Shown here one piece after another: positions 8,140 to 30,926 of a stretch of 64,000 bases of DNA. The DNA is from Pseudomonas sp. GM78. Its GTDB lineage: Bacteria > Pseudomonadota > Gammaproteobacteria > Pseudomonadales > Pseudomonadaceae. Position numbers and translations under genes: made by a program. Under the pieces are notes generated by a model, which searched no databases, was not told the origin of the DNA, and saw nothing but the letters and a program-made list of their open reading frames with translations. Position 1 is the first letter of the stretch, and every line of letters begins with the position of its first letter. The stretch lies in contig NZ_AKJF01000132.1 in the NCBI RefSeq assembly GCF_000282475.1, positions 1-64,000 on the forward strand, given 5' to 3'.

Positions 8140-8198
8140 GATGCTCTCCAGGCCATTCGGGTGCTGTGCCGGCAGCGCGATGGCCGCCGGCGCAGGGA

Positions 8199-8981: not shown

Positions 8982-9012
8982 TGCATGCTCTCCCATTTGA
9001 GTGTGGTCTGGC

Positions 9013-9780: not shown

Positions 9781-9828
9781 AGGGGCATTCTCCAATTCAA
9801 TTGATTTGCGCGATTTGAGGGGGAGGGT

Positions 9829-11556: not shown

Positions 11557-11586
11557 AAGATAAGGCTTTCAAAATTAATATGTCAA
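11557..11586 (-). promoter_or_regulatory. predicted sigma-70 promoter for aliA
   Basis: On the minus strand TTGACA (complement of 11581-11586) is followed after 18 bases by TATCTT (complement of 11557-11562). The -35 hexamer lies inside the palindromic operator, so a repressor bound there would block polymerase. The aliA start codon is about 70 bases downstream. Confidence 0.65.
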
Positions 11587-11599
11587 CATGTTGTCTTTA
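11580..11599. promoter_or_regulatory. operator 1, probable BadR/MarR site
   Basis: A 20-base sequence centred on the perfect palindrome CAACATGTTG (11584-11593). It recurs identically and in the same orientation at 30717-30736. Here it sits between the divergent aliA and badK units and overlaps the -35 elements of both. That a MarR-family gene is part of the regulated unit makes it the best candidate ligand; this is inference. Confidence 0.75.
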
Positions 11600-11619
11600 T
11601 ATTTTTCTGTGGATATATT
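11591..11619 (+). promoter_or_regulatory. predicted sigma-70 promoter for the badK-gcdH unit
   Basis: TTGTCT at 11591-11596 and TATATT at 11614-11619 with a 17-base spacer. The -35 is the right half of the operator. The ribosome site and ATG of the first gene (11654) lie 20-35 bases downstream of the -10. Confidence 0.65.
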
Positions 11620-11653
11620 CGAAGGCATTCCCGCAGAACAAGAGGTAGATGAC

Positions 11654-12430
11654 ATGGCTTTCCTGAACATCCTTGTCGAGCAGCGTGCGGCCGTTGGCCT
11701 GATCCGCCTTGATCGCCCGACTGTCTATAACGCGCTCAATGACGCCTTGATGACGGAGTTGGGCCAGGCACTGCTGGCCTTCGAGGCCGATGAGCAGATT
11801 CGGGCCATCGTCATTACCGGCAACGACAAAGCCTTCGCCGCCGGTGCCGACCTCAGCGAATTGCAGTTCAAGGGTTTTGCCGATGTGTACCTGGAGGACT
11901 TCGTCACGGCCAACTGGGAGACCGTGACCCGCTGCCGCAAACCGGTGATTGCAGCGGTTGCCGGCCTGGCGCTGGGCGGTGGCTGCGAGCTGGCGATGAT
12001 GTGCGACATGGTCATCGCCGCCGACAACGCACGGTTCGGCCAGCCCGAAGTCAAGGTCGGCACGCTGCCCGGCGCCGGCGGCACGCAGCGCCTGACCCGC
12101 GCCATCGGCAAGGCCAAGGCCATGGACCTGTGCCTGACCGGGCGTTTCATGGACGTCGATGAAGCCGAGCGCCTGGGCTTGATCAGCCGCGTGGTGCCCC
12201 TGGCCAGCCTGCTGGATGAAGCCCTGGCCGTGGCCGCGCAAATCGCCGCTCACCCGGCCATCGCGGTCAAGCTCAATAAGGAAGCGGTCAACCGGGCGTT
12301 CGAAACCACCCTGGCCGAGGGCGTGCAGTTCGAGCGGCGCCTGATGCACGCCAGTTTTGCCAGCCAGGACCAGAAGGAGGGCATGCAGGCCTTCGCGCAG
12401 AAGCGCCAGCCGGTGTGGACTCACCGCTGA
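11654..12430 (+). CDS. badK: cyclohex-1-ene-1-carboxyl-CoA hydratase (enoyl-CoA hydratase family)
   Basis: 258 residues, single-domain crotonase. It shows the AAGADLSEL and ALGGGCELAMMCDMVIAA oxyanion-hole segments and the catalytic Glu regions EVKVGTLPGAGGTQRL. In the CHC route BadK hydrates cyclohex-1-ene-1-carboxyl-CoA to the 2-hydroxy compound. The open frame extends to 11588, but that start would sit inside the promoter/operator; ATG at 11654 follows AGAGGT. It is the first gene of the plus-strand unit. It could instead, or also, hydrate pimeloyl-CoA beta-oxidation intermediates. Confidence 0.75.
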   Translation: MAFLNILVEQRAAVGLIRLDRPTVYNALNDALMTELGQALLAFEADEQIRAIVITGNDKAFAAGADLSELQFKGFADVYLEDFVTANWETVTRCRKPVIAAVAGLALGGGCELAMMCDMVIAADNARFGQPEVKVGTLPGAGGTQRLTRAIGKAKAMDLCLTGRFMDVDEAERLGLISRVVPLASLLDEALAVAAQIAAHPAIAVKLNKEAVNRAFETTLAEGVQFERRLMHASFASQDQKEGMQAFAQKRQPVWTHR

Positions 12431-12481
12431 CTGGCGCAAGCGATTGGCAAGCCGCATAACAACAAGAAGAGGAACTGTCCG

Positions 12482-13342
12482 ATGACTTCAGTCGTACACA
12501 TGACCCGCGAGGCAGGCGTGGCCTTGATCCGGGTCGACAACCCGCCGGTCAATGCCCTTGGCCACGCCCTGCGCGCCTGGTTGCTGGAAGCTTTTAGAAC
12601 GGCCGAACAGGACGCGCAGGTGGAATTGATCATGCTCTATTGCGTGGGCAAGACCTTTATCGCCGGCGCCGATATTCGCGAGTTCGGCCAGCCGGCCCAG
12701 GTGCCGATCCTGCAGGAACTGACCCTGGCCATCGAAAACGGCAACAAGCCTTCGTTGGCGGTGTTGCACGGTTCGGTGCTGGGCGGCGGGCTGGAAGTCG
12801 CACTGGGTTGTCACTACCGCATTGCCCACAGTGCTACCCGGCTCGGTTTGCCGGAAACCCGCCTGGGGCTGTTGCCCGGTGGTGGCGGCACCCAGCGCTT
12901 GCCGCGTCTGGTGGGCGTGGCAACAGCGCTGGAGATGATCATCACGGGCGAACCGATAGAGGCGAGCCAGGCGCTGGAGCTCGGTCTTGTAGACGCGCTA
13001 TTCGACGACGAGCCTCTGGTCGCAGGCCTGCGGCATGCACGGCAACTCTTGGCCGAGCAGGCCCCAGTGCGGCGCGTCGGCCAGATCGAAATGCCCACGA
13101 CATCCGTCGAAGCCAGCGCCTTGATTGAGGCCCGACACAGCGAAATCACCCGAACCCAAGCTGATTCATTCTCGGCGCCGCGCTGCCTCGCCGCCGTCGA
13201 AGCGGCAACGCAAATGCCATTGAGCGAAGGCCTGCAGCGCGAGCGTGCACTGTTTCTCGAATGCATGGCATCGCCCCAGCGCGCGGCGTTGATCGAAGAC
13301 TTCTTTGCCCGGCGCCAGGCGGCCAGGCAACGCCAAGGCTGA
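12482..13342 (+). CDS. enoyl-CoA hydratase, detached hydratase half of a PimF/FadJ-like enzyme
   Basis: 286 residues. The crotonase domain (about 1-200) has FIAGADIREF, GSVLGGGLEVALGCHYRIA and PETRLGLLPGGGGTQRLPRL. A tail of about 75 residues (ASALIEARHS...EGLQRERALFLECMASPQ...FFARRQAARQ) matches the linker that in fused hydratase/3-hydroxyacyl-CoA dehydrogenases leads into the NAD domain, but the protein ends exactly there. It probably hydrates 2,3-didehydropimeloyl-CoA. The matching dehydrogenase is a separate gene at 17462. ATG follows GAGGAAC. Confidence 0.83.
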   Translation: MTSVVHMTREAGVALIRVDNPPVNALGHALRAWLLEAFRTAEQDAQVELIMLYCVGKTFIAGADIREFGQPAQVPILQELTLAIENGNKPSLAVLHGSVLGGGLEVALGCHYRIAHSATRLGLPETRLGLLPGGGGTQRLPRLVGVATALEMIITGEPIEASQALELGLVDALFDDEPLVAGLRHARQLLAEQAPVRRVGQIEMPTTSVEASALIEARHSEITRTQADSFSAPRCLAAVEAATQMPLSEGLQRERALFLECMASPQRAALIEDFFARRQAARQRQG

Positions 13343-13391
13343 ACTTGCGGCCAGCCTTGGGGTTGGCCTGACCATCGATAGAGGACTTTGC

Positions 13392-14588
13392 ATGGACATC
13401 CATTACACACCCGCCGAGCTTGAGTTCCGCGCCGAGGTGCGGGCCTTTCTAAGTGACGCGCTGCCCGCAGACATCGCCAGCAAAGTTCGCCTGGGCAAGC
13501 GCTTGAGCAAGGACGACCACCAACGCTGGCAGCGCATCCTCGCGCGGCGCGGCTGGTACGCGGCCAATTGGCCGGTGGCCTTTGGTGGCACCGGTTGGAG
13601 CGTGGTGCAAAAGCACCTGTTCGAAGAAGAATGCGCCGCCTTCGGCGCACCGCGCCTGATCTCCTTCGGCGTCAACATGGTTGCCCCGGTGATCATGAAG
13701 TTCGGCAGCCCGGCGCAGCAGGCGCATTACCTTCCACGCATTCTCAGCGGCGAAGACTGGTGGTGCCAGGGTTACTCCGAACCGGGCGCGGGCTCGGACC
13801 TGGCCAGCCTCAAGACCCGCGCCGTGCGCGAGGGCGAGCACTATGTGGTCAACGGTCAGAAGACCTGGACCACCCTGGGCCAGCACGCCAACATGATTTT
13901 CTGCCTGGTGCGCACAGACAGCGAAGCCCAGCAGCAGCGGGGTATTTCCTTCCTGCTGATCGACATGGCCACTCCCGGCATCAGCGTTCGCCCGATCATC
14001 ACGCTCGAAGGCGAGCATGAGGTCAACGAGGTGTTCTTCGACAACGTCCGCGTACCGGTCGAGAACCTGGTGGGCGAAGAGAATCAGGGCTGGACCTGCG
14101 CCAAGTACCTGCTGACCCACGAGCGCACCGGGCAGGCCGGTATCGGCCAGTCCAAGGCGGCACTGGCGCACCTCAAGGAGGTGGCCCGGCAGGAACTGCG
14201 CAACGGTTTGCCGCTGCTGGACGATTTGCAGTTTCGCCTGCAGGTCGCCGAGGTTGAGATTCAGCTGCTGGCCATCGAGATGAGCACCTTGCGCATCCTC
14301 GCCGCCGCCCAGGCCGGCGGTGTGCCCGGTGCCGAAAGCTCGATCCTGAAGATCAAGGGTTCGGAAATTCGCCAGGCAATCAGCCACTTGCTGCGCAAGG
14401 CGCTGGGCACCAAAGCGTTGCCCTTTGTCGAGGCAGAACTGCACGACGACTTCACCGGCACGGTGTTGCACAGCGACTACAGCGCCGCCCCCGCCAGCCA
14501 GTATTTCAACCTGCGCAAGCTGTCTATCTACGGCGGCTCCAATGAAATTCAAAAGAACATCATCGCCAAGATGATTCTTGAGCTTTAA
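13392..14588 (+). CDS. pimC: acyl-CoA dehydrogenase, pimeloyl-CoA dehydrogenase large-type subunit
   Basis: 398 residues. Typical acyl-CoA dehydrogenase: WCQGYSEPGAGSDLASL for FAD and substrate binding, VNGQKTWTTLGQ, and the C-terminal LSIYGGSNEIQKNIIAKMIL signature. ATG at 13392 follows AGAGGA. It is paired with the next gene, separated by only 11 bases. In R. palustris PimC and PimD are paired acyl-CoA dehydrogenases that introduce the 2,3 double bond in dicarboxylyl-CoAs; the same role is inferred here. Electrons would go to the ETF encoded downstream. Confidence 0.8.
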   Translation: MDIHYTPAELEFRAEVRAFLSDALPADIASKVRLGKRLSKDDHQRWQRILARRGWYAANWPVAFGGTGWSVVQKHLFEEECAAFGAPRLISFGVNMVAPVIMKFGSPAQQAHYLPRILSGEDWWCQGYSEPGAGSDLASLKTRAVREGEHYVVNGQKTWTTLGQHANMIFCLVRTDSEAQQQRGISFLLIDMATPGISVRPIITLEGEHEVNEVFFDNVRVPVENLVGEENQGWTCAKYLLTHERTGQAGIGQSKAALAHLKEVARQELRNGLPLLDDLQFRLQVAEVEIQLLAIEMSTLRILAAAQAGGVPGAESSILKIKGSEIRQAISHLLRKALGTKALPFVEAELHDDFTGTVLHSDYSAAPASQYFNLRKLSIYGGSNEIQKNIIAKMILEL

Positions 14589-14599
14589 GGAGGTACGCA

Positions 14600-15742
14600 A
14601 TGGACTTCACACTCAGCGCCGAGCAGCAGATGCTGCAAGACACCGTGGCCCGACTGGCCCGCGATCACTACAGCTTCGAAGCCCGCGAGGGCTACTACCG
14701 CAGCGAAGCCGGCATGAGCCCGGCGTTCTGGAACCAGATGGCCGAACTGGGCCTGTGTTCGGTGCCGATTGCCCAGGCACACGGCGGCTTCGGTGGCAGC
14801 GGCGTGGACAACCTGCTGATCATGACCGAGCTCGGTCGCAACCTGTGCCTGGAGCCGTTCCTGCAATCGCAGATTCACGCGGCCGGCCTGCTGCAGCAAC
14901 TGGGTGATGCCAGCCAGCAGGCAGACCTGTTGCCGCAAGTCGCTGCAGGCTCGCTGCAATTGGCGGTAGCTTTGGAAGAACAGCAAAGCCATTACCAACT
15001 GCACGATGTGCAAACCCAGGCGCGCGCGGTCGAGGGCGGCTGGTGCCTGTCCGGGCGCAAGATCGCCGTGGTCGGCGCGGCCAGTGCGGGGTTGATCCTG
15101 GTGTCGGCGCGTACAGGCGGCGATGCGCTAGGCGAACAGGGGATCAGCCTGTTCCTGGTCGATTCCCAGGCGGACGGCTTGCAGCGTTGCGATTACCCCT
15201 GCATCGACGGCCCGCGTGCCAGCGACCTGATCCTCGACGAGGTCTTTGTAGGTCGCAGCGCGTTACTTGGCAACGTTGGCGAGGCCTTGCCAGCCTTGCG
15301 TTATCAGCAGGGTCGCGCGATTGCCGGGCAGTGCGCCGAAGCCATCGGCGGTATGGAGGAGGCGTTTCGCCTGACCCTCGACTACCTCAAGACGCGCAAG
15401 CAGTTCGGCGCCCCCATCGGCAAGTTCCAGGTGTTGCAGCATCGCATGGCCGACATGCGCGGCGAGCTCGAATTGGCCACCTCGATGGCCATCCTGGCCG
15501 CCTGCGTGGCCGATCAGGCCGACAGTGACGACCGCAGCCGGCAACTGGCCGCCGCCAAATTCGTGGTGGTGCGCGCCGCACGCCTGATCGCCGAGCAAGC
15601 GATCCAGTTGCACGGCGGCATCGGCATGACCTGGGAATACAGCCTGGCCCATCACGCCAAAAGACTGGTGATGCTCAGCCACCAGTTGGGCGATGACGAC
15701 CACCATTTGCAGGCCTATGCCGCGCTGCTGCGCAGCGCCTGA
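14600..15742 (+). CDS. pimD: acyl-CoA dehydrogenase, PimD-like partner subunit
   Basis: 380 residues, a more divergent acyl-CoA dehydrogenase with weaker N- and middle-domain motifs. The C-terminal FAD domain is recognisable (KTRKQFGAPIGKFQVLQHRMADM, AIQLHGGIGMTWEY). A perfect AAGGAGGT precedes the ATG. Paired small and large subunits of this kind form heteromeric dehydrogenases in dicarboxylate beta-oxidation. It lies between pimC and etfB. Confidence 0.78.
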   Translation: MDFTLSAEQQMLQDTVARLARDHYSFEAREGYYRSEAGMSPAFWNQMAELGLCSVPIAQAHGGFGGSGVDNLLIMTELGRNLCLEPFLQSQIHAAGLLQQLGDASQQADLLPQVAAGSLQLAVALEEQQSHYQLHDVQTQARAVEGGWCLSGRKIAVVGAASAGLILVSARTGGDALGEQGISLFLVDSQADGLQRCDYPCIDGPRASDLILDEVFVGRSALLGNVGEALPALRYQQGRAIAGQCAEAIGGMEEAFRLTLDYLKTRKQFGAPIGKFQVLQHRMADMRGELELATSMAILAACVADQADSDDRSRQLAAAKFVVVRAARLIAEQAIQLHGGIGMTWEYSLAHHAKRLVMLSHQLGDDDHHLQAYAALLRSA

Positions 15743-15772
15743 TCCATCACTGCACTCACACGGGAACACACT

Positions 15773-16522
15773 ATGAAAGTACTGGTTGCGGTAAAGCGCG
15801 TGGTCGATTTCAACGTCAAGGTTCGCGTCAAGGCGGACCATTCCGGCGTTGACCTGGCCAACGTCAAGATGGCGATGAACCCCTTTTGCGAGATCGCCGT
15901 GGAAGAAGCGGTGCGCCTGAAAGAGCAGGGGGTTGCCACCGAGGTGGTGGTCGTCAGCATCGGCAGCAGCGCGGCTCAGGAGCAACTGCGCACCGCGCTG
16001 GCTCTGGGCGCCGACCGTGCCATTCTGGTCGAGACCGGTGAAGACCTGGGTTCCCTGGCCGTGGCCAAGCTGTTGAAGGCGGTGGTCGACAAGGAACAGC
16101 CTCGGCTGGTGATCCTCGGCAAACAGTCCATCGACAGCGACAACAACCAGACCGGCCAGATGCTCGCGGCACTGAGCGGCTACGGTCAGGGCACCTTCGC
16201 CTCCAAAGTCGAAATCAGCGGCGACAGCGTGGCCGTGACCCGCGAAATCGACGGCGGCGCACAGACGGTCGCGCTGACACTGCCGGCCATCGTCACCACC
16301 GACCTGCGCCTGAACGAGCCGCGCTACGCGTCGCTACCCAACATCATGAAAGCCAAGAAAAAGCCGCTGGAGGTGCTCACCCCGAGCGCCCTGGACGTGA
16401 GCTGCGCGGGCACCGTGCAGACTTTGAAAGTCGAAGCGCCGGCCGCGCGCAGCGCGGGTATCAAGGTCAAGTCGGTGGCCGAACTGGTCGAGAAACTCAA
16501 GAACGAGGCGAAGGTAATCTAA
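15773..16522 (+). CDS. etfB: electron transfer flavoprotein beta subunit
   Basis: 249 residues, standard EtfB length. It begins [20 protein letters not shown] and carries the [17 protein letters not shown] and [18 protein letters not shown] signatures. EtfB with EtfA accepts electrons from acyl-CoA dehydrogenases and passes them to ETF:quinone oxidoreductase, which is not in this window. Here it would serve AliB, PimC/D and GcdH. Its stop overlaps the etfA start by one base. Confidence 0.95.
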
Positions 16523-17451
16523 TGGCTATCCTGGTTATCGCTGAACACAACAATGCGGCACTGGCGGCCGCTACCCTCAATACCGTGACCGCCGCGCAGC
16601 AGATCGGTGGCGACATTCATCTGCTGGTCGCAGGCCATGGCGCTGGCGCCGTGGCTGAAGCGGCGGCGCAGGTTGCTGGCGTGGCGAAAGTGCTGCTGGC
16701 CGACAACGCCGCGTATGCTCACCAATTGCCGGAAAACGTGGCGCCTCTGGTTGCCGAGCTTGGCAAGGGCTACAGCCACATCCTCGCCGCCGCCACCAGT
16801 AACGGCAAGAACATCCTGCCACGGGTTGCCGCGCAACTGGATGTCGACCAGATCTCGGAGATCATCGCGGTCGAAAGTGCCGATACCTTCAAGCGCCCGA
16901 TCTATGCGGGCAATGCCATCGCGACGGTGCAGTCATCTGCCGCCGTCAAGGTGATCACTGTGCGCAGTACCGGGTTCGACGCCGCTGCCGCCGAAGGGGG
17001 CAATGCCGCCATCGAAGCGCTGAGCCTGGTCACCGACAGTGGCCGGTCGGCGTTCGTCAGTGAAGCACTGGCCAAGTCCGACCGCCCGGAGCTGACCGCG
17101 GCGAAGATCGTCGTGTCGGGCGGCCGTGGCATGCAGAACGGTGACAACTTCAAGCACCTCTATGCACTGGCCGACAAGCTCGGTGCGGGCGTGGGGGCGT
17201 CGCGCGCCGCGGTCGATGCCGGCTTCGTGCCCAACGACATGCAGGTCGGCCAGACCGGCAAGATCGTCGCGCCGCAGTTGTACATCGCGGTGGGCATCTC
17301 CGGCGCCATCCAGCACCTGGCTGGCATGAAGGATTCCAAGGTGATCGTGGCGATCAACAAGGACGAAGAGGCGCCGATTTTCCAGGTGGCCGACTACGGC
17401 CTGGTGGCGGATCTGTTCGAGGCCGTGCCGGAGCTGGAACGGGCAATCTGA
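16522..17451 (+). CDS. etfA: electron transfer flavoprotein alpha subunit
   Basis: 309 residues. The C-terminal FAD domain has [40 protein letters not shown] and [21 protein letters not shown]. It starts with the TAATG overlap of etfB, so the two are translationally coupled. Having its own ETF pair inside the catabolic operon fits the four acyl-CoA dehydrogenases encoded here. Pseudomonas normally carries another etfBA copy elsewhere, so this is probably a dedicated second set. Confidence 0.95.
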
Positions 17452-17461
17452 GGAGGTGCAT

Positions 17462-18982
17462 GTGAATACGTTCAGACAGATCGGTGTGATCGGCAGCGGT
17501 GCCATGGGCCGGGGGATCGCCCAGTTGTTCGCCTCCGCGGGCGTTCCGGTGTTGCTGTATGACAGCCGTAGCGAAGCAACGGAAGAAGCGCTGCAAGCCA
17601 ATCGGGCCTTGCTAGAGCGATCCACCGCCAAGGGCAAGTTGAGCAGTGAAGCACTGGCGACTGCACTGGCTTGCATGCGCCCGGCCATCAGCCTTGAGGC
17701 CTTGGCCGATTGTGATGTGTTAATCGAGGCGATCGTGGAAAACCTCGAGGCCAAGCAGTCGTTGTTCCGCGCGTTGGAGGAAGTCGTCAGGCCCGATGCA
17801 GTGCTGGCGACCAACACCTCATCCTTATCGGTGAGCCTGATTGCCAGTGCTTGCAAGCATCCCGAACGGGTGGCCGGGTTGCACTTCTTCAACCCGGTGC
17901 CACTGATGAAAATCGTCGAGGTGGTCCGTGGCGAACTGACCGACCCGCAGGTGGTTCAGCGCCTGGCGGCGCTGGCCGGGAACGCGGGTCATTTTGCCGC
18001 GACGACGCCCGACTCACCGGGCTTCCTGGTCAATCATGCCGGGCGGGCCTTCGGTCCGGAGGCCTTGCGCATCCTCGGCGAAGGGATCGCTACCCCGGCG
18101 CAGATCGATCGCATCCTCAAGGACAGCCTCGGCTTTCGCATGGGGCCGTTCGAGCTGTTCGACCTTACCGGCCTGGACATCTCCCATGCGGTGATGGAGT
18201 CGATTCACACCCAGTTTTACCAGGACCCGCGCTACACCCCCTCGGCGTTGGTGCCACCGCGTCTGGCCAGTGGTTTGCTCGGGCGCAAGACCGGGCAGGG
18301 TTTTTATCGTTATCAGGACGGTAGCGTGGTCGAGCAAGCAGAGCAGGCGCATCCGCAGGTGGCGATCACCCAGCCGTTCTGGCTGGACTGCGACGACTCG
18401 GCCATGCGCGAGCGGATCGCCGCAGTGTTGTCGGTTGCCGGCTTGGCCCTGGAGCAGGCCGATCAACCGAGTGCGAACGCCATCTGCCTGGTCACGCCTT
18501 TGGGCGAGGATGCCAGCAGCGTGATCGCCCGCAAGCGACTGCCGCCGTGCCGTAGCCTGGCGCTGGAGACCTTCGTCGGTTTCGACACGCGCCGCGTGCT
18601 GATGCGCCAACCGGCGCTCGATCCACAGGTCCTGGCCCAGGCACGCCAGGCCTTGGGGGCCGATGGTGTACCGGTGGAAGTCATCAATGACTCGCCGGGC
18701 TTCATCGCCCAGCGCGTGCTCGCCGGCATCGTCAACCTGGGTTGCGAAATTGCCCAGCGGCGCATCGCCGAACCCGCGATCCTCGACCGTGCGGTGCAGT
18801 TGGCCCTCGGTTACCCCCATGGTCCGCTGGGTTTTGGCGACCATTACGGTGCTTTGCAGATCCAGCAGATCCTGCACCGACTGCATGAGCTGTATCAGGA
18901 GCCGCGCTACCGGGTCAGCTCCTGGCTGCGGCGTCGTGTGCAGCTCGGCCTGCCCCTGACCACCCCCGAGGAGCAAGCATGA
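17462..18982 (+). CDS. 3-hydroxyacyl-CoA dehydrogenase (PaaH type)
   Basis: About 506 residues. The NAD-binding motif [17 protein letters not shown] is at the N terminus, followed by [25 protein letters not shown] and two C-terminal dehydrogenase domains ([14 protein letters not shown] and [17 protein letters not shown]). This matches stand-alone PaaH-type enzymes. It should oxidise 3-hydroxypimeloyl-CoA to 3-oxopimeloyl-CoA. I chose GTG at 17462 with AGGAGG at proper distance rather than a GTG two codons earlier. The stop overlaps the thiolase start (ATGA). Confidence 0.88.
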
Positions 18983-20181
18983 GCGCCTATATCTACGATG
19001 GCCTGCGTTCGCCTTTCGCTCGTCACGCTGGCGCCCTGGCCGCTGTGCGCCCGGATGACCTGCTGGCCAGTGTGGTGTGTGCCCTGGTGGCGCGTAACCC
19101 GTTCGACGTGCGCGACTATGAAGACTTGATCGCCGGCTGCAGCAGTCAGGCCGGTGAGGACGGGCGCAACCTGGCGCGTCATGTTGCACTGCTGTCCGGC
19201 CTGCCGACGGCCGTTGCCGGCTTGACCGTCAATCGCCTGTGCGGTTCGGGCCTGGCCGCCGTGCTGGATGCTGCGCGTGCCGTGCGCTCGGGCGAGGGCG
19301 AATTGTTTATTGCTGGTGGCGCTGAGAGCATGAGTCGTGCGCCGTTTGTGGTGGCCAAGGCGCAAAGCGCATGGTCCCGTGATTTTCATGTGTACGACAG
19401 CTCAATCGGCGCACGCTTTCCCAACCCGAAGGTAGAGTCCGGGTTCGGTGCCGATTCGATGCCGCAGACGGCGGACAACGTCGCCCGTGAACTGGGCATC
19501 ACTCGCGAGGACGCCGACCGCTATGCCGCGCGCAGTCAGGCGTTGTTCGACGCGTCCGTGCGCGAGGGGTTCCAGGCCGGTGAAATCCTGCCGATCGAAG
19601 TGCCGCAAGGGCGCAAGCAGCCAGCGAAGATCGTCGACCGTGACGAGCATCCGCGCCCGCAAAGTAACTTCGAAGCACTGTCGGACCTGCAACCGCTGTT
19701 TAACGGCGGCGTTGTCACCGCGGGCAACGCTTCGGGCATCAACGATGGTGCGGCAGCGCTGCTGATTGGTTCGCGGGCCATGGGTGAGAAGGCCGGGCTC
19801 AGGCCTCGTGCGCGCATCCTGGCCGGCGCCGTGGCCGGGGTCGAACCGCGCCTGATGGGCCTGGGCCCGGTGCCGGCCTGCGCCAAGGCCTTGCAGCGCG
19901 CAGGCTTGACGCTTGCCGACATGGACCTGATCGAAATCAACGAAGCGTTCGCCGCACAAGTACTCGGCTGTGCCCGGCAACTCGGCGTGGCCTTCGATGA
20001 TCCGCGCCTGAACCCCAACGGTGGTGCCATTGCCATCGGCCACCCGCTGGGTGCTTCCGGCGCTCGCCTGGCCTACAGCGCGGTGCGCCAACTGGAACGC
20101 AGCAACGGCCGCTACGCCCTGGTCAGCCTGTGCATTGGCCTGGGGCAGGGCATTGCCTGCGTGATCGAACGCCTCGACTGA
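18979..20181 (+). CDS. pimB: acetyl-CoA acyltransferase (3-oxopimeloyl-CoA/3-oxoadipyl-CoA thiolase type)
   Basis: 400 residues. The active-site Cys lies in [18 protein letters not shown] (about residue 91); the C-terminal [11 protein letters not shown] and [15 protein letters not shown] hold the second Cys and His. It resembles PcaF/PaaJ thiolases that act on dicarboxylyl-CoAs, which suits 3-oxopimeloyl-CoA cleavage to glutaryl-CoA and acetyl-CoA. It overlaps the upstream dehydrogenase by four bases and is followed by gcdH, the enzyme for its product. Confidence 0.85.
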
Positions 20182-20215
20182 CCAACATTACAAGAACCCA
20201 ACCGGAGAACTACAC

Positions 20216-21397: not shown

Positions 21398-21437
21398 TGT
21401 TTGCCTGCCCGGTCTGAAGCCGGCGACAAAGCCCAAG

Positions 21438-21470
21438 AAAAAGGCGATGGTCATATACCATCGCCTTTTT
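21438..21470. terminator. bidirectional rho-independent terminator
   Basis: Stem AAAAAGGCGATGG / CCATCGCCTTTTT with a 7-base loop, with A and T runs on the two sides. It lies between the convergent gcdH and nitroreductase genes and can stop transcription in both directions. Confidence 0.92.
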
Positions 21471-21486
21471 CATTGGGGCTACCCGG

Positions 21487-22173: not shown

Positions 22174-22197
22174 GGATCTTCTCCGATTATGCGCGGT

Positions 22198-22968: not shown

Positions 22969-23723
22969 CAGCCGCCGGCCACGCTGAGCGACTCGCCGGT
23001 AATGGCGCGCGCAGCGTGGGAGGCGAGGTACACGGCGCTGTCGCCGATCTCGCTCGGTTCCAGCAGACGCTTGAGCGGTTGGCGCGCCAGGATGTGGCGT
23101 TGCAGCGCTTCTTCTTCGCTGATGCAGTCCTGGGCCGCCAGTTGCGGCAGCTGGTTTTCCACCAGGGAAGTGCGCACGGCGCCGGGCAAAATGGCGTTGG
23201 CGGTGATCCCTCGATTCACGGTTTCAAGGGCCAGGGTTCGGGTCAGGCCGATCAGGCCGTGTTTGGCGGCAACGTAGGCGCTCTTGTAGGGCGAGGCCAG
23301 TTTGCCGTGCACCGAAGCGATGTTGATGATGCGCCCGCTCTGCTGTTCGAGCATGCCCGGCAGGGCGTGTTTGCACATCAGGAATGGCCCCGTCAGCATC
23401 ACGGCCAACAGGGTGTTCCATTGGCTCAGCGGGAAGTCCTGCACGGGCGCGATGTGCTGCAACCCGGCGTTGTTCACCAGCACATCCACGGCGCCGTGCT
23501 CTGCTAGCAATTGCTCATGAAAGGCGACGATCTGCGCCTCGCTGGTGACGTCCAGCGCATAGGCGCGAGCGTTGGGCAGGCTGCTCGCGGCCTGCTCGGC
23601 GGCCGCCAGGTTGACGTCGCACAAGGCCACGAAATCACCCTGGGCGGCGAAGGCCCGGGCAATCGCCAGGCCGATGCCCTGGGCGGCGCCGGTGACCACC
23701 ACGGTACGTTGCGTCGGGTTCAT
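22965..23723 (-). CDS. SDR, 3-hydroxybutyrate dehydrogenase-like
   Basis: 252 residues. NAD-binding TGAAQGIG is at residue 11, NNAG at about 87, and catalytic Ser/Tyr/Lys lie in IASVHGKLASPYKSAYVAAK, a stretch very typical of D-3-hydroxybutyrate dehydrogenases (BdhA). It may oxidise an (R)-3-hydroxy acid or acyl-CoA produced by the coupled MaoC-like protein. Neighbours are the acyl-CoA synthetase upstream and the MaoC gene overlapping downstream. Confidence 0.82.
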   Translation of the reverse strand: MNPTQRTVVVTGAAQGIGLAIARAFAAQGDFVALCDVNLAAAEQAASSLPNARAYALDVTSEAQIVAFHEQLLAEHGAVDVLVNNAGLQHIAPVQDFPLSQWNTLLAVMLTGPFLMCKHALPGMLEQQSGRIINIASVHGKLASPYKSAYVAAKHGLIGLTRTLALETVNRGITANAILPGAVRTSLVENQLPQLAAQDCISEEEALQRHILARQPLKRLLEPSEIGDSAVYLASHAARAITGESLSVAGGW

Positions 23724-23725
23724 GT

Positions 23726-25690
23726 TCAGGCTCCCGATGATACAGGCTGCAGGTGGCAGCGACTGATGACTTCAAGGGCGGCAGGATTTTCCATCGACGT
23801 CAGGTCGCCCGCGTCCTGGCCCAGGTAAGCGGCGCGAATCACCCGGCGCATGACCTTGCCATTGCGGGTCTTGGGCAACTCGCTGACGTAGTGCAGATGC
23901 TTGGGACGCATCGCCTTGCCCAACCGGGTGCCGATCAGGCCAAGCAGTTCGGTTTCCAGCGCGGGGGTCGGTTCGCTGCCTGGATGGAGCACCACGAAAC
24001 ACACCGGGGCTTCACCCTTGATCTCGTCGGGAACGCCGATGGCCCCGGCCTCAAGCACCTGGGCGTGGCTGACCAGGATCGACTCCATTTCCGCAGGGCC
24101 GATCCGCTTGCCGGCCACGTTCAGGGTGTCGTCGGAGCGACCGGTGATGGTCCAGAAACCTTCGCCATCGATGATCGCCCAGTCGCCGTGCACCCAGGTT
24201 TCAGGGAAACGGTTGAAGTATGAGTCTGCATAGCGCTGCGGTTCCTGCCAGAAGCTTTGGGTCATGCCGATCCACGGCTGGCGAAGCACCAGCTCGCCCA
24301 GTGCCTGGCGCACCGGTTGGCCCTGGGTATCGCAGACGTCAGCCGCCATGCCCGGCATGCGACTGTTGAATGTTACCGGGGCGATCGGCTTGATCAGCAC
24401 ATTGGTCAGGATGCCGCCGCCAATCTCGGTGCCGCCAGCGTAGTTGATGATCGGATAACGGCCCCGGCCTACGGTATTGAATAGCCACAGCCAGGGCTCC
24501 GGGTTCCACGGCTCGCCGGTTGAAGTGAAGGTACGCAGGGCGCTGAGGTCATGGCCTTGGGCAATGGCTTCGCCATGCTGCATTAGCGAGCGGACAAGGG
24601 TGGGGGATACGCCGATGTGCGTGGCGTGGTGACGTGCGCCGAGCTTCCAGACACGATCTGCTTGTGGGTAGTCCGGCGAGCCTTCATAGATCACGGCGCA
24701 GGCACCGTTGATCAGGCTGCCGAAGACTACCACCGGGCCGGTCAGCCAGCCCATGTCGGTGATCCAGAACAGCCGGTCGTTCTGCCCGACATCCATGCAC
24801 AAACCGACATCCAGCGCCGCCTTGAGCGGGAATCCGCCGTGGGTATGCACCGCGCCCTTGGGCTTGCCGGTGGTGCCGGAGGTGTAGATGATCATCATCG
24901 GTGCCTGGCTGTCCATGACCGCTGTCGGGCACTGGCTGCCGTCGCAGGCTTGCAGCGTGGCAAAGTCCAGGTCGCGGGTCGGGTGCCAGGGGATGTCCCG
25001 TCCCAGGCGTCGCACCACCACGACTTTTTCCAGGGACGGGCTCAGTGCGGCGGCCTTGTCGGCCTCTTCCTTCATGGCGATCACCCTGCCGCGGCGCATG
25101 AAGCCGTCGGCGGTGATCAGCAGCTTGGCCCCGCAAGCTTCGATGCGCGTGGCCAGGGCTTCGGCGCCATAGCCGGAGAAGGCGGGCGTGAAGATCGCGC
25201 CGAGCTTGACCACCGCCAACAGTGCAACCACGGTCTCGATCAGCATCGGCATGAAGATGGCGACGCGGTCACCGCTGACCACGCCCAGTTCACTCATGCC
25301 CTGGGCAACGTTGTTGACCCGCCGCGCCAGCTCGCCGTAGCTCACTTCAAGGCACTGGCCGTCTTCGCCTTCCCAAATCAACGCGGCTTTCTGGGCGTGC
25401 TCCGGGTCGACAGCCCAGCGTTCCAGCGCGGTGCGCAGGATGTTGAGTCGGCCACCCTCGTACCAGCGCGGATGCTTGATGCCGCCCGCGGCATTGAGCG
25501 GCGTTTGATAAGGCTGGTCCCAGACGATGCCCAGGGCCTTCTCCAGGGCGCTGGCGAACCATTGCGGATCGTTGGTGGAACGCTCGATGAAGGCGTCATA
25601 GTCAGGCTCGCCCACTGCCTGCATCCACTGATGCAGGCGCGTGCGACCAATGAAATCGGCGGACGGCGTCCAGACGGCGGAGGTATTCAT
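23726..25690 (-). CDS. AMP-forming acyl-CoA synthetase (acetyl/acetoacetyl-CoA synthetase-like)
   Basis: About 654 residues, the length of Acs/AacS-type enzymes. MMIIYTSGTTGKPKGAVHTH is the nucleotide loop, and HGDWAIIDGEGFWTITGRSDD with NVAGKRIGPAEMES and the RNGKVMRRVIR catalytic Lys end complete the ANL signature. It activates a carboxylic acid with ATP and CoA; the short GGTEIGGG pocket favours small or polar acids, but the substrate is unknown. ATG at 25690 is at the right distance from AAGGA; the open frame continues to 26047 across livM and that part is not credible. Confidence 0.85.
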   Translation of the reverse strand: MNTSAVWTPSADFIGRTRLHQWMQAVGEPDYDAFIERSTNDPQWFASALEKALGIVWDQPYQTPLNAAGGIKHPRWYEGGRLNILRTALERWAVDPEHAQKAALIWEGEDGQCLEVSYGELARRVNNVAQGMSELGVVSGDRVAIFMPMLIETVVALLAVVKLGAIFTPAFSGYGAEALATRIEACGAKLLITADGFMRRGRVIAMKEEADKAAALSPSLEKVVVVRRLGRDIPWHPTRDLDFATLQACDGSQCPTAVMDSQAPMMIIYTSGTTGKPKGAVHTHGGFPLKAALDVGLCMDVGQNDRLFWITDMGWLTGPVVVFGSLINGACAVIYEGSPDYPQADRVWKLGARHHATHIGVSPTLVRSLMQHGEAIAQGHDLSALRTFTSTGEPWNPEPWLWLFNTVGRGRYPIINYAGGTEIGGGILTNVLIKPIAPVTFNSRMPGMAADVCDTQGQPVRQALGELVLRQPWIGMTQSFWQEPQRYADSYFNRFPETWVHGDWAIIDGEGFWTITGRSDDTLNVAGKRIGPAEMESILVSHAQVLEAGAIGVPDEIKGEAPVCFVVLHPGSEPTPALETELLGLIGTRLGKAMRPKHLHYVSELPKTRNGKVMRRVIRAAYLGQDAGDLTSMENPAALEVISRCHLQPVSSGA

Positions 25691-25719
25691 GGTCATGTCC
25701 TTATCGCTGATCAATGGGA

Positions 25720-26703
25720 TCACTTGAAATTCTTCTTCACAAGCAGCTTGATCGATCCGACGACACCGGAACGGAAGCAGAGTACGCAGAGCACGAAAAT
25801 GCAGCCAAGGATCGGCGTACCCCAGGTACCCAGTGGCGATTGCGCCAGCAGGTGTTGCAGCGAGATCACGATGCCGGCGCCGACAAACGGGCCGAGCAGG
25901 GTGCCGACGCCGCCGAGCAAGGTCATCAGCACCACTTCGCCGGACATGTGCCAGTGTGCATCCGACAAGGTTGCCAGTTGAAACACCACGGCCTTGGTGG
26001 AACCGGCAAGGCCGGCAATGCCCGATGAAATGACAAAGGCCAGCCATTTATACCGCGTGACGTTGTAGCCCAGCGACGTGGCGCGGTCTTCGTTCTCGCG
26101 GATGGCCTGCAGAATCTGCCCGAAAGGCGAGTGCACCACGCGCTTGGCCAGGGCGAAGCCCAGCACGGTGATGGCCAACACGAAGTAGTACATGGCGTGG
26201 TTGTCCGCCAGGTCGATGAACCCCAGCAGCTTGCCGCGACTGATGCCGTGCAGGCCGTCTTCGCCACCGGTGAAGGGGGCCTTGAGGAACAGGAAGTACA
26301 GCAATTGCGCGAGGGCCAGGGTGATCATCGCGAAATAGATGCCCTGCCTGCGAATGGCCAGCGCGCCAAACAACGCACCGACCAGCGCGGCAGCGGCAGT
26401 CCCGCCGATGATCGCCAGTTCCGGTCCGATGCCCGGGTGTTGGCTCAACAGATAACCGGTGCTGTAGCCGCCCGCGGCGAGGAACGCGGCATGCCCGAAG
26501 GACAGCAGGCCGGTATAGCCCAGCAGCAGGTTGAACGAGCAGGCAAACAGGCCGAAGCACAACAGTTTCATCAGGAACACGGGGTAAGCGACCCAGGGGG
26601 CGATCAAGCCGATCGCGATCAGGGCGATGTACAGCGTGTTGAGCTGGCGTCGCTCACGGATCCCGCGCTGTTGCGCGAATGTCAGCAGAGATTGAGTGTT
26701 CAT
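25720..26703 (-). CDS. livM: branched-chain-type ABC transporter permease LivM
   Basis: 327 residues, multi-span permease. SFGHAAFLAAGGYSTGYLLSQ and the EAA-like GENEDRATSLGYNVTRYKWLAF region are typical of LivM. It forms the membrane channel with LivH. It starts 4 bases after livH ends. The importer probably carries cyclohexanecarboxylate, pimelate or similar acids, given its position in the operator-linked unit and the known use of Liv-type systems for aromatic acids in Rhodopseudomonas; this is inference. Confidence 0.92.
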   Translation of the reverse strand: MNTQSLLTFAQQRGIRERRQLNTLYIALIAIGLIAPWVAYPVFLMKLLCFGLFACSFNLLLGYTGLLSFGHAAFLAAGGYSTGYLLSQHPGIGPELAIIGGTAAAALVGALFGALAIRRQGIYFAMITLALAQLLYFLFLKAPFTGGEDGLHGISRGKLLGFIDLADNHAMYYFVLAITVLGFALAKRVVHSPFGQILQAIRENEDRATSLGYNVTRYKWLAFVISSGIAGLAGSTKAVVFQLATLSDAHWHMSGEVVLMTLLGGVGTLLGPFVGAGIVISLQHLLAQSPLGTWGTPILGCIFVLCVLCFRSGVVGSIKLLVKKNFK

Positions 26704-26707
26704 GGGC

Positions 26708-27595
26708 TTACGTCTCCTTTCCGAACAGACCGTTGGGGCGTACCAGCAGTACCAGGATCATCACCAGGAAAATCACCGTGCCGGATGATTCGGGCCAGAA
26801 CACCTTGGTCAGGCCTTCGATCAGACCCATGGCGAGCCCGGTGAGGATCGCCCCCATGATCGAACCCATGCCGCCGATGACCACCACCGCGAACACCACG
26901 ATCAACAGGTTGGAGCCCATGGTCGGCGACACCGAGTAGATCGGCGCTGCCAACACACCGGCGAAAGCCGCCAAGGCCACGCTGAAACCGTAGGTGAGGG
27001 TGGTCAGCAACGGCACGTTGACCCCGAAAGCCTGCATCAGCGCCGGCTTTTCGGTGCCAGCGCGCAGGTAGGCACCCAGGCGCGTTTTCTCGATCACGTA
27101 CCAGGTGAACAGGCACATCCCCAGACCGGCCGCCAGCACCCAGGCGCGGTAGGCCGGCAGGAACATGAAGTCCAGCTTGAAACCGCCTTGCAGCGCCGGC
27201 GGAATCGGGTAATTGCTGCCGGACACGCCGAACAGGTTGATGAAGCTGCCTTCGATAATCATCGCCAGGCCGAAGGTCAGCAGCAGGCCATAGAGATGAT
27301 CCAGGTGCGCGATGCGCCGCAGCAGCAGGCGCTCGATCAAAATGCCCAGGGCGCCGACCAGCAGCGGCACCAGGAACAGCGCCGCCCAATAGTTCACGTT
27401 CAGGTACTTGAGCAACAGCAGCGCGGCGAAGGCGCCCAGCATGTATTGCGCGCCGTGGGCGAAGTTGATGATGCGCAGCAAGCCAAAGATCACCGCCAGG
27501 CCCAGGCTCAACAGCGCGTAGAACGCGCCGTTGATCAGGCCGAGCAACAATTGGCCGAACAGGGCTGCCAGGGGTACCCCCAATAGCATGGTCAT
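26708..27595 (-). CDS. livH: branched-chain-type ABC transporter permease LivH
   Basis: 295 residues with about eight membrane spans. The N-terminal LINGAFYALLSLGLAVIFGL and the LVVFAVVVIGGMGSIMGAIL region are LivH signatures. It pairs with LivM. It lies between the substrate-binding protein gene and livM in the minus unit. Confidence 0.93.
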   Translation of the reverse strand: MTMLLGVPLAALFGQLLLGLINGAFYALLSLGLAVIFGLLRIINFAHGAQYMLGAFAALLLLKYLNVNYWAALFLVPLLVGALGILIERLLLRRIAHLDHLYGLLLTFGLAMIIEGSFINLFGVSGSNYPIPPALQGGFKLDFMFLPAYRAWVLAAGLGMCLFTWYVIEKTRLGAYLRAGTEKPALMQAFGVNVPLLTTLTYGFSVALAAFAGVLAAPIYSVSPTMGSNLLIVVFAVVVIGGMGSIMGAILTGLAMGLIEGLTKVFWPESSGTVIFLVMILVLLVRPNGLFGKET

Positions 27596-27616
27596 GTCAG
27601 TCGTCCTCGGGCTTGG

Positions 27617-28882
27617 TCAGGGGCGTAACGTGCTGGCGACTTTCTGATCGGCCGTCACGAGCTTGCACTTGCTTTGTGAAAGCGGCAGGAAAGCTTCGTC
27701 CGCCGGGATCGTGCCGAGGATCTTGAACAGATCCCACTCACCCGTGGATTCCTCGGGTGCCTTGACCTGGGCCAGGTACATGTCATGCACCATGCGGCCA
27801 TCGACCCGAACCCGACCGTTTTTAGTGAACATGTCGTTGATCGGCGTCTTGATCATGTACTCGCGCACGGTCTGCGGGTCGTCGGAGCCGGTGGCTTGCA
27901 CCGCCTTGAGGTACTGGTAAGTGCTGGAGTACATGCCCGCCTGAACCATGGTCGGCATGCGCTGGGTGCGCTCGAAGTAGCGCCTGGCCCAGGCGCGGGA
28001 CTCATCGTTCATGTCCCAGTACCAGCCGGACACGAACTTGGTGCCCTGGGCCGTCGGCAGGCCGATGGCCTTGATGTCGGTGATGAACACCATGAGGCTG
28101 GCCAGGGTCTGGCCGGATTCCATCAGGCCGAATTGCTTGGCGGTGGAGATGGCATTGACCAGGTCGGAGCCGGCGCTGGCCAGGCCGATGATCTTGGCGC
28201 CCGAGGCTTGGGCTTGCAGGATGTACGAGGAAAAATCGCTGGTCTGGAACGGGTGGTTGGCCTTGCCGATGATTGTACCGCCGTTCTCGACCACCGCCTT
28301 CGACACTTGCGCCTCCATGGCGTGGCCGAAGGCGTAGTCGGCGCTGAGCATGTACCAGGTGTCACCGCCGCTGGCGACGATGGCCTTGGCCGCACCGTTG
28401 GAGACCGAGTAGGTGTCGTACACGTAATGCAGGTGGTTGGGCGTGCAATATTCGTTGGTCAGGCTGGCAGCGGCGGCGGTGGAGACGATGGCGAAGCGTT
28501 TCTTTTCCTCGACCAGGCGGGTGACGGCGATGGCCACCGGTGAGGCGTTGAGCCCGGCGATCAGGTCGACATTGCGCTGGTCGATCCACTCGCGGCTGAT
28601 GTTCGCGCCCAGGTCGGCGTTGTTCTTGTGGTCGGCGGAAAACAGCTCGATTTTGTCCTGGCCGATCTTGCCGCCCATGTCCTCGATGGCCATGCGTATG
28701 GCTTCCAGTCCTCCGGGACCGGCGAGATCGCTGTAGGGGCCGCTGAGGTCATCGAGGTAGCCGATGCGAATTTCATTGTCACTGATACTGGCCTGCGCGG
28801 TGCTGGCGAGCAGGCCACAAAACAGGCTGGCGCTGATCGCCCGGGCGATCTGGGCGGTACTGAAGTTGAATGCTGCAGACAT
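27617..28882 (-). CDS. ABC transporter periplasmic substrate-binding protein (LivJ/LivK type)
   Basis: About 421 residues. A signal peptide ends near AQAS, then the type I periplasmic binding fold begins (ISDNEIRIGYLDDLSGPYSDLAGPGG). The sequence GYLDDLSGPYSD resembles binding proteins used for aromatic or alicyclic acids rather than leucine. ATG at 28882 is preceded by GGAG at a good distance; a start four codons upstream is possible. It captures the ligand for LivHM. Confidence 0.9.
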   Translation of the reverse strand: MSAAFNFSTAQIARAISASLFCGLLASTAQASISDNEIRIGYLDDLSGPYSDLAGPGGLEAIRMAIEDMGGKIGQDKIELFSADHKNNADLGANISREWIDQRNVDLIAGLNASPVAIAVTRLVEEKKRFAIVSTAAAASLTNEYCTPNHLHYVYDTYSVSNGAAKAIVASGGDTWYMLSADYAFGHAMEAQVSKAVVENGGTIIGKANHPFQTSDFSSYILQAQASGAKIIGLASAGSDLVNAISTAKQFGLMESGQTLASLMVFITDIKAIGLPTAQGTKFVSGWYWDMNDESRAWARRYFERTQRMPTMVQAGMYSSTYQYLKAVQATGSDDPQTVREYMIKTPINDMFTKNGRVRVDGRMVHDMYLAQVKAPEESTGEWDLFKILGTIPADEAFLPLSQSKCKLVTADQKVASTLRP

Positions 28883-28940
28883 GCGAATCTCCACGGCTTG
28901 AGAGCGCGCTAATTGTTGTTATGGGTCGTTTACAGCAGGG

Positions 28941-29663
28941 TCAGACGCCAAGCATGGCGTTCAGTTGATCGCGTTTGCCGTCCAGTTCCCCGGCGCTGAA
29001 GTGTTCGACGACCTGACCGTGTTCGATCAGGTAATGACGATCGGCCAGGGGCGCGGCGAAGCGGAAGTTCTGCTCCACCAGGACGATGGTGATGCCCCGG
29101 CGCTTGAGCGCCACCAGCACTTCGCCCAGGCGCTCGACGATCACCGGGGCCAGGCCTTCGGTGATCTCGTCGAGCAGCAACAGGTTCGCCCCGGTGCGCA
29201 GGATCCGGGCCATGGCCAGCATCTGCTGTTCGCCGCCGGACAGGCGCGTGCCCTGGCTTTTGCGGCGCTCGTGGAGGTTGGGGAACATGTCGAAGATTTC
29301 CTCCAGCGACATGCCGCCCGTGGCCACGGTTGGCGGCAGCATGAGGTTCTCTTCCACGTTCAGGCTGGCGAAGATGCCGCGCTCTTCCGGGCAGAACCCA
29401 ACGCCGAGGCGGGCGATCTGGTGCGCGGCGGTCTTCACGGTCTCCTGGCCGTTGATGCAGATCGAGCCGCTGCGGCGGCCGACCATGCCCATGATCGATT
29501 TCAGGATGGTGCTGCGGCCGGCGCCGTTGCGGCCGAGCAGGGTAACCAGCTCACCGCGATTGACCGTCATGTCGACGCCGTGAAGGATGTGCGACTCGCC
29601 GTAGAAGGCATGCACGTTGGCCAGGCGCAGTTGTTCGCGTGGTGGATTCTGTACGTCAGACAT
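28941..29663 (-). CDS. livF: ABC transporter ATP-binding protein LivF
   Basis: About 240 residues. Walker A LLGRNGAGRST (note Arg in place of the usual Lys before Ser-Thr), signature LSGGEQQM, Walker B LLLLDEITEGLAP and H-loop VEQN are present. GAGRST instead of GAGKST is an established LivF variant. ATG at 29663 gives a short overlap with the end of livG, a normal arrangement; an in-frame start at 29693 would overlap more. Confidence 0.92.
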   Translation of the reverse strand: MSDVQNPPREQLRLANVHAFYGESHILHGVDMTVNRGELVTLLGRNGAGRSTILKSIMGMVGRRSGSICINGQETVKTAAHQIARLGVGFCPEERGIFASLNVEENLMLPPTVATGGMSLEEIFDMFPNLHERRKSQGTRLSGGEQQMLAMARILRTGANLLLLDEITEGLAPVIVERLGEVLVALKRRGITIVLVEQNFRFAAPLADRHYLIEHGQVVEHFSAGELDGKRDQLNAMLGV

Positions 29664-30414
29664 GCCTAGCCTCCTTGCCCATGTAGGCTTCACGCACCTG
29701 CGGGTTGGCCGATACGCTGGCGTAGTCGCCTTCGGCCAACACGCTGCCGCGGGCCAGGACGGTGATGCGATGGCACAGGCTGCTGACGACGCGCAGATTG
29801 TGCTCGACCATCAACACCGTACGGCCCACCGCGACCTTGCGGATCAGTTCGACCACCCGCTCGACGTCCTCGTGACCCATGCCCTGGGTTGGTTCATCGA
29901 GCAACATCACCTTGGGTTCCAGGGCCAGGGTCGTGGCCAGTTCCAGTGCGCGCTTGCGCCCATAGGGCAGCTCAGCGGTCTTGTGCAGGGCGAAGTCCTG
30001 CAGGTCGACTTGTTCAAGCAGGTGCATGGCGCGCTGGTTGAGGTGGTCGAGGGAGTTGGCGGCTTTCCAGAAGTGAAAGGAAGTGCCGAGTTCCCGCTGC
30101 AGGGCAACGCGGACGTTTTCCAGCACGCTCATCTGGCCGAACACCGCCGATATCTGGAAGGAGCGCACCAGCCCCAGGCGGGCGATCCTGTTGGGCGCGA
30201 GCTTGCCGATGGCTTTTCCTTGATAGAGCACCGTGCCGCGGGTGGCTGGCAGGAAGTGGGTCAGCAGGTTGAATACCGTGGATTTGCCGGCGCCGTTGGG
30301 GCCGATCAGGGCATGGATATGCCCCTCCTGCACTTGAAGATCGACCGAGTCCACGGCCGTGAAGCCATTGAACGCCTTGGTCAGCCCCCGGGTTTCGAGA
30401 ATGACATTGCTCAT
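29656..30414 (-). CDS. livG: ABC transporter ATP-binding protein LivG
   Basis: 252 residues. Walker A LIGPNGAGKST, the LVRSFQ Q-loop, Walker B KVMLLDEPTQGM and the VEHN H-loop are visible. The usual LSGGQ signature is replaced by ELPYGRKRALELA, as in many LivG proteins. It is the first gene of the minus unit that continues through the permeases, synthetase, SDR, MaoC and nitroreductase genes. The operator/promoter at about 30.7 kb lies some 300 bases upstream. Confidence 0.92.
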   Translation of the reverse strand: MSNVILETRGLTKAFNGFTAVDSVDLQVQEGHIHALIGPNGAGKSTVFNLLTHFLPATRGTVLYQGKAIGKLAPNRIARLGLVRSFQISAVFGQMSVLENVRVALQRELGTSFHFWKAANSLDHLNQRAMHLLEQVDLQDFALHKTAELPYGRKRALELATTLALEPKVMLLDEPTQGMGHEDVERVVELIRKVAVGRTVLMVEHNLRVVSSLCHRITVLARGSVLAEGDYASVSANPQVREAYMGKEARHV

Positions 30415-30693
30415 CGCTGTTCTTCCTGCCTGGTGATGGTTTGCTTGGCTGGACAGTGCACATGCCGCCTGTGCACGGGTCAGCCTTGATCGCTGGACGC
30501 ACGCGCAACGGCCGAACGGTCTGGCAGGAATTTACGAGAGATATAAGTCATCATATTGTCATTAATGGCGTCGAGCCAAATTTTTGCAGGATGGATCGCT
30601 GACGTCATTTGCGTGGTCTGTCTCATTGCAAGCACCTGATTCACTGAATCTGATTGTTTTTATGGTGATGTGAATGCTTTGTCGATGGAGCAG

Positions 30694-30723
30694 ACAATAC
30701 GCTCGACGATTTATTAATGTCAA
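30694..30723 (-). promoter_or_regulatory. predicted sigma-70 promoter for the livG unit
   Basis: On the minus strand TTGACA (complement of 30718-30723) is followed after 18 bases by TATTGT (complement of 30694-30699). Geometry is the same as at aliA: the -35 is one half of the operator palindrome. Confidence 0.65.
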
Positions 30724-30736
30724 CATGTTGTCTTTA
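30717..30736. promoter_or_regulatory. operator 2, identical to operator 1
   Basis: The same 20 bases as at 11580-11599, centred on CAACATGTTG (30721-30730). On the right flank no plus-strand -10 is present, in agreement with the absence of a plus-strand gene here. Probable BadR/MarR site. Confidence 0.75.
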
Positions 30737-30926
30737 AATGAAGGCGGCATGCAGGCGTCATCGTCCTTGCTACCTCAACGGTGAGGCCGCAGTGGTCAGT
30801 TCCTGCACTCAGGTGTCCAATAAGGGGGGAGGTGACACGTTGAAAGCGGCCAGTCGACCTTGCGCCGTCTGGCCGTGCTGATTTTTGCGGGGGCATCCGG
30901 ACGTCGATAACGCCGTTTACAGCTCT

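Follow-up and report, generated by a model that had tools for sequence, protein, structure and literature searches.

Does one regulator act at both of the places where a stretch of the Pseudomonas sp. GM78 genome carries an identical 20-mer? The stretch, 64,000 nucleotides of contig NZ_AKJF01000132.1 (positions 1 to 64,000; hereafter the window), has the first copy, operator 1, at 11580-11599 in the intergenic region between aliA and badK, two genes of an ali-bad cluster for the breakdown of cyclohexanecarboxylate, and the second copy, operator 2, at 30717-30736 upstream of livG, which heads a transporter operon. By sequence comparison, we consider it probable, at about 0.88, that both copies of the 20-mer, ATGTCAACATGTTGTCTTTA, are operators of BadR, a predicted MarR-family repressor encoded at 6448-6927 (minus strand), and that they would unite three transcripts of about 25 kb in total, including badR itself and the transporter genes, in a single regulon.

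Results

Exact matching found the 20-mer at these two places of the window only, as the earlier note on this DNA had claimed, and the identity between the two sites lengthens to 23 nt if one mismatch is allowed. The 10-base core, CAACATGTTG, at 11584-11593 in operator 1 and 30721-30730 in operator 2, has no other exact match in the window, and the same two sites were the only matches there to TGTCAAN4TTG when both orientations were searched. The earlier note had also proposed a genome-wide search and had held a 20-base identity by chance to be very unlikely. In the 7,287,561-base (7.29 Mb) genome the inner 18-mer, WTGTCAACATGTTGWCWW, occurs twice and allowing up to 2 mismatches still returned the same two sites only, and a simulation of 60 first-order Markov sequences, each 64 kb long and with the dinucleotide composition of the window, gave a mean of 0.03 repeated 20-mers per sequence. 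The remaining exact repeats of at least 20 bases in the window all come from one repeat element near 36.3 and 44.9 kb. A search for TGTCAACATGTTGTCTTT that tolerated up to 3 mismatches returned three extra places in the genome, and a reversed control pattern returned the same number (2 forward, 1 reverse). These three places were rejected as operators, since their number equals that of the control and the one bearing CAAN4TTG (L007) lies inside a 933-codon open reading frame (ORF).

A consensus scan placed the -35 boxes of predicted promoters inside both sites, in agreement with the overlap claimed earlier for aliA, badK and livG: within operator 1, that of aliA (TTGACA-18-TATCTT, 11557-11586, minus strand) and that of badK (TTGTCT-17-TATATT, 11591-11619, plus strand), and within operator 2, that of livG (TTGACA-18-TATTGT, 30694-30723, minus strand). 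Transcription would be predicted to start near 11550, 11626 and 30687. The same scan of the window gave no promoter-like match on the plus strand at operator 2. Promoter-like matches in short intergenic stretches numbered 2 and 3, against 0.5 in shuffles in each case.

At both sites, the core satisfies CAAN4TTG, the palindromic core of the published BadR operator. According to the main text of PMC9795900, the MarR repressor BadR of Aromatoleum sp. CIB binds CAATgtATTG, as seen in gel shifts with mutant probes, and the operator consensus CAAN4TTG overlaps the predicted -35 boxes of the divergent ali promoters; the same text names cyclohexanecarboxyl-CoA (CHC-CoA) as the effector in Aromatoleum, cites 2-oxocyclohexane-1-carboxyl-CoA for Rhodopseudomonas palustris, and reports that most bad-ali clusters of Gram-negative bacteria contain a recognizable copy of the consensus, with Pseudomonas included in the legend of Figure 6. 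Because the core fits this consensus and the consensus is reported that widely, Pseudomonas being listed, we regard operator 1 as an instance of the published element. The closest solved chains of the protein encoded at 6448-6927 are MarR-family regulators, its Pfam match is MarR_2 (PF12802, 1.2e-10), and its gene is clustered with aliB, badI and badH in relatives; the name BadR is given here from the MarR family and the position in the ali-bad cluster.

In a set of 398 Pseudomonas genomes, 12 yielded aliB (TIGR03207, E at most 1e-150), and the identical 12 contained the 18-mer when up to 1 mismatch was allowed, with badR present in the ali-bad cluster of each, and at these thresholds neither aliB nor the 18-mer was found in the remaining 386. 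When 16 further genomes were reached through relatives of badR, 13 carried the 18-mer when up to 2 mismatches were allowed. A draw across the phylum gave aliB (E at most 1e-140) in 10 of 398 genomes, the own genome included; of the 10 loci from the other nine, badR was present in nine, and CAAN4TTG stood upstream of badH or aliA in five of these nine. In L170, an aliB relative is present and badR is absent. All of aliA, badH, badI, aliB and badR were present in 32 of 32 loci, a completeness that is partly by construction, as aliB or badR had served to retrieve these loci. In P. gregormendelii (L084), badR stands with oprD, aliB, badI and badH were not found in the 10 kb upstream, and a scan of the genome that allowed up to 2 mismatches gave no 18-mer.

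Operator 1 was aligned over 28 distinct loci, chosen for having a site at up to 3 mismatches. The 18-mer is exact in 20 of these rows, and all 28 agree at TGTCAA, at TTG and in columns 8 and 16; changes within the 10-base core are confined to N4, and the others fall in the TCTTT tail. The position of the aliA -10 box is mostly kept across the alignment, and the badK -10 box reads TAGACT or similar in most other species. Five loci (L069 at 11447, L075 at 4780, L087 at 9701, L088 at 9702 and L089 at 9702) have within aliB a sequence that differs from the operator by 3 mismatches, TGGCAACTTGTTGTCCTT; it fits CAAN4TTG and may be merely conserved coding sequence, and the aliB of the window has no similar site at up to 5 mismatches.

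Operator 2 stands before livG in six loci, namely the window, L061 (same species), L064, L144, L145 and L143; three copies are exact and the others have 1, 3 and 2 mismatches. Both TGTCAAN4TTGTCTT and TTGACA-18-TAT are kept in all six, and four of the six base changes fall in the N4 spacer. L143 (P. fluorescens HK44) has lost the greater part of its liv operon and still has operator 2; at 12020-12554 of this locus, a livG remnant adjoins a maoC remnant, with the operator in front. In a midpoint-rooted FastTree phylogeny of five proteins from the 32 loci, the genomes with this site, together with L071 (G128), form one clade (support 0.998), and livK was not found in L071. Elsewhere, livGFKHM lies directly behind badR on the same strand (L065, L067, L069, L088 and L096) or behind badR after one gene (L100); in the first five loci, the badR-livG interval contains no site even when up to 3 mismatches are allowed. 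The transporter therefore accompanies badR in two arrangements, and it has its own operator in the one that separates it from badR.

On its livG side, operator 2 is flanked by 45 nt that are similar, -10 box included, to the aliA-side flank of operator 1 from other genomes. For all six loci the best partner was L088, and none of 1000 composition shuffles reached the best score. For the badK-side flank, the likeness between sites 2 and 1 was weak in L145 and L143 (reached by 33 and 40 of 1000 composition shuffles) and none was found by the same shuffles in the other four loci, so that a copy of the whole two-way promoter at site 2 is not supported. A shared promoter constraint could explain part of the livG-side likeness, and an origin of the livG promoter by promoter duplication is therefore plausible rather than demonstrated.

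The livG leader contains a possible small ORF of 48 codons (30480-30626, minus strand), with AGGTG upstream of its ATG and the motif INDNM. Start, stop and frame of this ORF (48-51 codons, AGGTG-type ribosome site) are kept in the window, L061, L064 and L144; in L145 the start is kept and not the stop, and in L143 the stop and not the start. The ratio of nonsynonymous to synonymous differences (pN/pS) was 0.35-0.66 over six pairs, which weakly favors an encoded peptide. The ORF matched no Pfam family at E up to 1, and a plasmid search with the leader gave no match. Inside the ORF, the 14-nt AATGACAATATGAT is identical in all six loci with operator 2, and a search allowing up to 1 mismatch found the 19-nt block around it in three of 398 Pseudomonas genomes, always before livG. 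Read on the opposite strand, this stretch is a BadR-like half site, ATATTGTCATT, and a partial third copy of the repeat at 30545-30567 has ATATTGTCATT as its right half in six of six loci. The left half of that copy is TCAT in the window and L061, TAAT in L064, L144 and L143, and CAAT in L145, where CAAT-cat-ATTG forms a repeat with a 3-bp spacer. CAAN4TTG is found at this copy in none of the six, and we do not accept it as a putative auxiliary BadR site. Between operator 2 and the small ORF, on the minus strand, CCATAAAAACAATCA is conserved in five of the six loci, with a gap in L143. In this stretch, AAAAACAA fits the Hfq/Crc catabolite-repression motif AANAANAA.

Three blocks of genes surround the operators. 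On the minus strand, the aliA block (5027-11484) contains aliA (cyclohexanecarboxylate-CoA ligase, 9829-11484; best family TIGR03208, 724.4 bits, below the cut-off of 792.3), badH (2-hydroxycyclohexanecarboxyl-CoA dehydrogenase, 9013-9795; best family TIGR03206, 371.2 bits, below 431.2), badI (2-ketocyclohexanecarboxyl-CoA hydrolase, 8199-8996; TIGR03210, 466.9 bits, slightly below 467.6), aliB (cyclohexanecarboxyl-CoA dehydrogenase, 7000-8202; TIGR03207, 596.2 bits, above 575.35), badR and an OprD-family porin gene (5027-6328; Pfam OprD, 4.2e-134), which adjoins badR in many loci and is possibly the last gene of the aliA transcript. On the plus strand (11651-21397), an enoyl-CoA hydratase family gene named badK from its position (11651-12430; PRK05862, 408.8 bits) is followed at 12482-21397 by the lower pathway, a pimeloyl-CoA beta-oxidation set with a second enoyl-CoA hydratase, two electron transfer flavoprotein subunits, a 3-hydroxyacyl-CoA dehydrogenase, a thiolase, an acyl-CoA dehydrogenase, and pimC-like and pimD-like acyl-CoA dehydrogenases, both below their cut-offs. 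The liv block (21487-30414, minus strand) encodes LivG, LivF, a periplasmic binding protein, LivH and LivM (25720-30414; Pfam ABC_tran, BCA_ABC_TP_C, Peripla_BP_6 and BPD_transp_2), by Pfam the complete make-up of a HAAT-type (Liv) ABC transporter with two ATPases, two permeases and the binding protein, and, at 21487-25720, an acyl-CoA ligase (ending at 23726, its start codon unfixed, at or before 25720), a short-chain dehydrogenase/reductase (SDR), a MaoC-type dehydratase and a nitroreductase-family protein. The binding protein is encoded at 27617-28894, and its closest solved chain is 3i09, named a branched-chain amino acid-binding protein; the gene neighbourhood suggests cyclohexanecarboxylate or a relative as the putative substrate. 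Terminator-like sites within the region were not above chance (2 against 5.6; 14 against 14.3). Counterparts of the nitroreductase-family gene (21487-22173, minus strand) lie near ali-bad genes in L066, L067, L069, L075, L076, L088, L092, L096, L100 and L102.

Elsewhere in the window, the repeat at 36314-36339 and 44866-44968 is a 26-bp GC-rich element with inverted copies, which we take to resemble a Pseudomonas REP element, and an ORF at 34628-35263 (plus strand) has a weak zeta-toxin Pfam match (3.5e-07).

Discussion

How, then, might the two operators work? Without substrate, a BadR dimer on TGTCAA-N4-TTG would cover the -35 boxes and block RNA polymerase at three promoters, silencing an aliA-badH-badI-aliB-badR transcript (perhaps with oprD), a badK transcript with the pimeloyl-CoA beta-oxidation genes, and a livG transcript for the ABC transporter, CoA ligase, SDR, dehydratase and nitroreductase. 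A pathway CoA thioester (CHC-CoA in Aromatoleum, 2-ketocyclohexane-carboxyl-CoA in R. palustris) would free BadR from its operators, so that uptake and breakdown would be induced together, and the loop would limit itself because badR sits in its own target transcript. We infer binding by the BadR of the window, its effector, the extents and starts of the transcripts, and the substrate of the transporter. The earlier note had suggested one MarR repressor for both sites; the single repressor is supported by the published-operator core, the MarR gene in the ali-bad cluster, the co-occurrence in 12 of 398 genomes and the livG copy in six loci, while BadR, the published operator and the place of badR within its own repressed transcript went unnamed there. 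Its figure of about 25 kb agrees with the 25,133 bases of the three blocks, provided that each block is a single transcript, which we assume.

Several observations weigh against this regulon. Even with up to 2 mismatches allowed, three of the 16 further genomes (G400, G409 and G410) gave no site, and four of the nine badR clusters from the phylum draw (L162, L165, L167 and L169) are without CAAN4TTG upstream of badH or aliA, three of them keeping a near match as judged by eye. L098 has aliA, badH, badI, aliB and badR and no site at up to 3 mismatches, but only a CAAN4TTG that stands away from its TTGACA. The bare CAAN4TTG is a common motif, found 22 times in the window against about 16 expected. 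Identity of the window BadR to the nine badR products of further clusters is 40-49% for eight and 72% for the ninth. Over the whole region, promoter-like matches are near chance (1 against 1.4 and 5 against 3.4), and the promoters therefore rest mainly on position and conservation.

Among other explanations, the one that survives best, though we hold it improbable, is that operator 1 belongs to BadR and operator 2 is non-functional, the liv operon being driven from elsewhere. The distance from operator 2 to livG is about 300 bp, a further, weaker promoter-like match stands at 30579-30550, and a scan of 30300-31000 gave no terminator-like site, which would allow read-through from the upstream glutathione S-transferase (GST)-like gene. 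However, operator 2 keeps its -35 and -10 spacing in six loci, with base changes concentrated in N4, and the GST-like gene was not found beside it in L064, L144 and L145. Similar palindromes are used by other MarR-family proteins, and the link between the 20-mer and its regulator comes from comparing sequences, so the linked MarR gene could be incidental and the target that of another regulator; the fit of the core to the published BadR operator, and the 18-mer and aliB sharing the same 12 genomes with badR in the cluster each time, make this very unlikely. That the sites are look-alike paired -35 regions without a regulatory role, as TTGACA in both might suggest, is close to negligible, given that the far-side TGTCTT is kept in all six site-2 loci (TCTTT in four) though that strand of the window has no promoter-like match there, and that the 18-mer, at up to 1 mismatch, is absent from the 386 genomes without aliB.

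As probable BadR operators, the two sites are of a known type, and the modest new element is the second operator-promoter unit, which would join the transporter operon to the regulon. In R. palustris, Hirakawa et al. are said to have described in 2015 a single badH-badI-aliB-aliA-badK operon divergent from badR. The MarR repressor of the bad-ali genes in that species and its site, CAATacATTG, are shared features (PMC9795900, main text). Aromatoleum sp. CIB shares the MarR repressor, the CAAN4TTG core, its overlap with predicted divergent -35 boxes and the ali-bad genes; there, however, the divergent aliA and aliB promoters have two operators between them, whereas in the window a single operator contains both -35 boxes, badR follows aliB within the aliA block, and the transporter operon is preceded by a second operator (PMC9795900, in whose main text the words transporter, transport, porin and uptake are absent). 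Cupriavidus necator H16 has a cyclohexanecarboxylate-inducible promoter with a repressor-type BadR (PH16_RS27200), described in a reporter study whose available text gives no operator sequence (PMC7057948). The ABC genes of the R. palustris HbaE (RPA0668) transporter lie between the bad and hba operons, and the binding protein takes benzoic acid and relatives (PMC3223731, which leaves badR unmentioned in its main text); the comparison with the window is one of gene setting and description. A BadR operator before a transporter was not found described in the literature searched, mostly without subscription papers.

A fuller history is possible, though we regard it as rather doubtful: the livG promoter would be a duplicated BadR-bound aliA cassette (operator, -35 and -10), gained as the transporter block became separated from badR, so that uptake would have remained part of the regulon, with a later decay of the badK half, and a conserved leader peptide of 48-51 amino acids, overlapping the conserved BadR-like half site, would tune the transporter. 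The BadR regulon proposed here would add a linked transporter to the catabolic genes under a studied repressor, and it suggests for the Pseudomonas-type cluster a longer operator, TGTCAAN4TTGTCTT, than the published 10-mer. It would also offer a case of an operator-promoter unit placed before an operon that elsewhere lies behind badR, with a relic in HK44, and it may aid the design of cyclohexanecarboxylate sensors.

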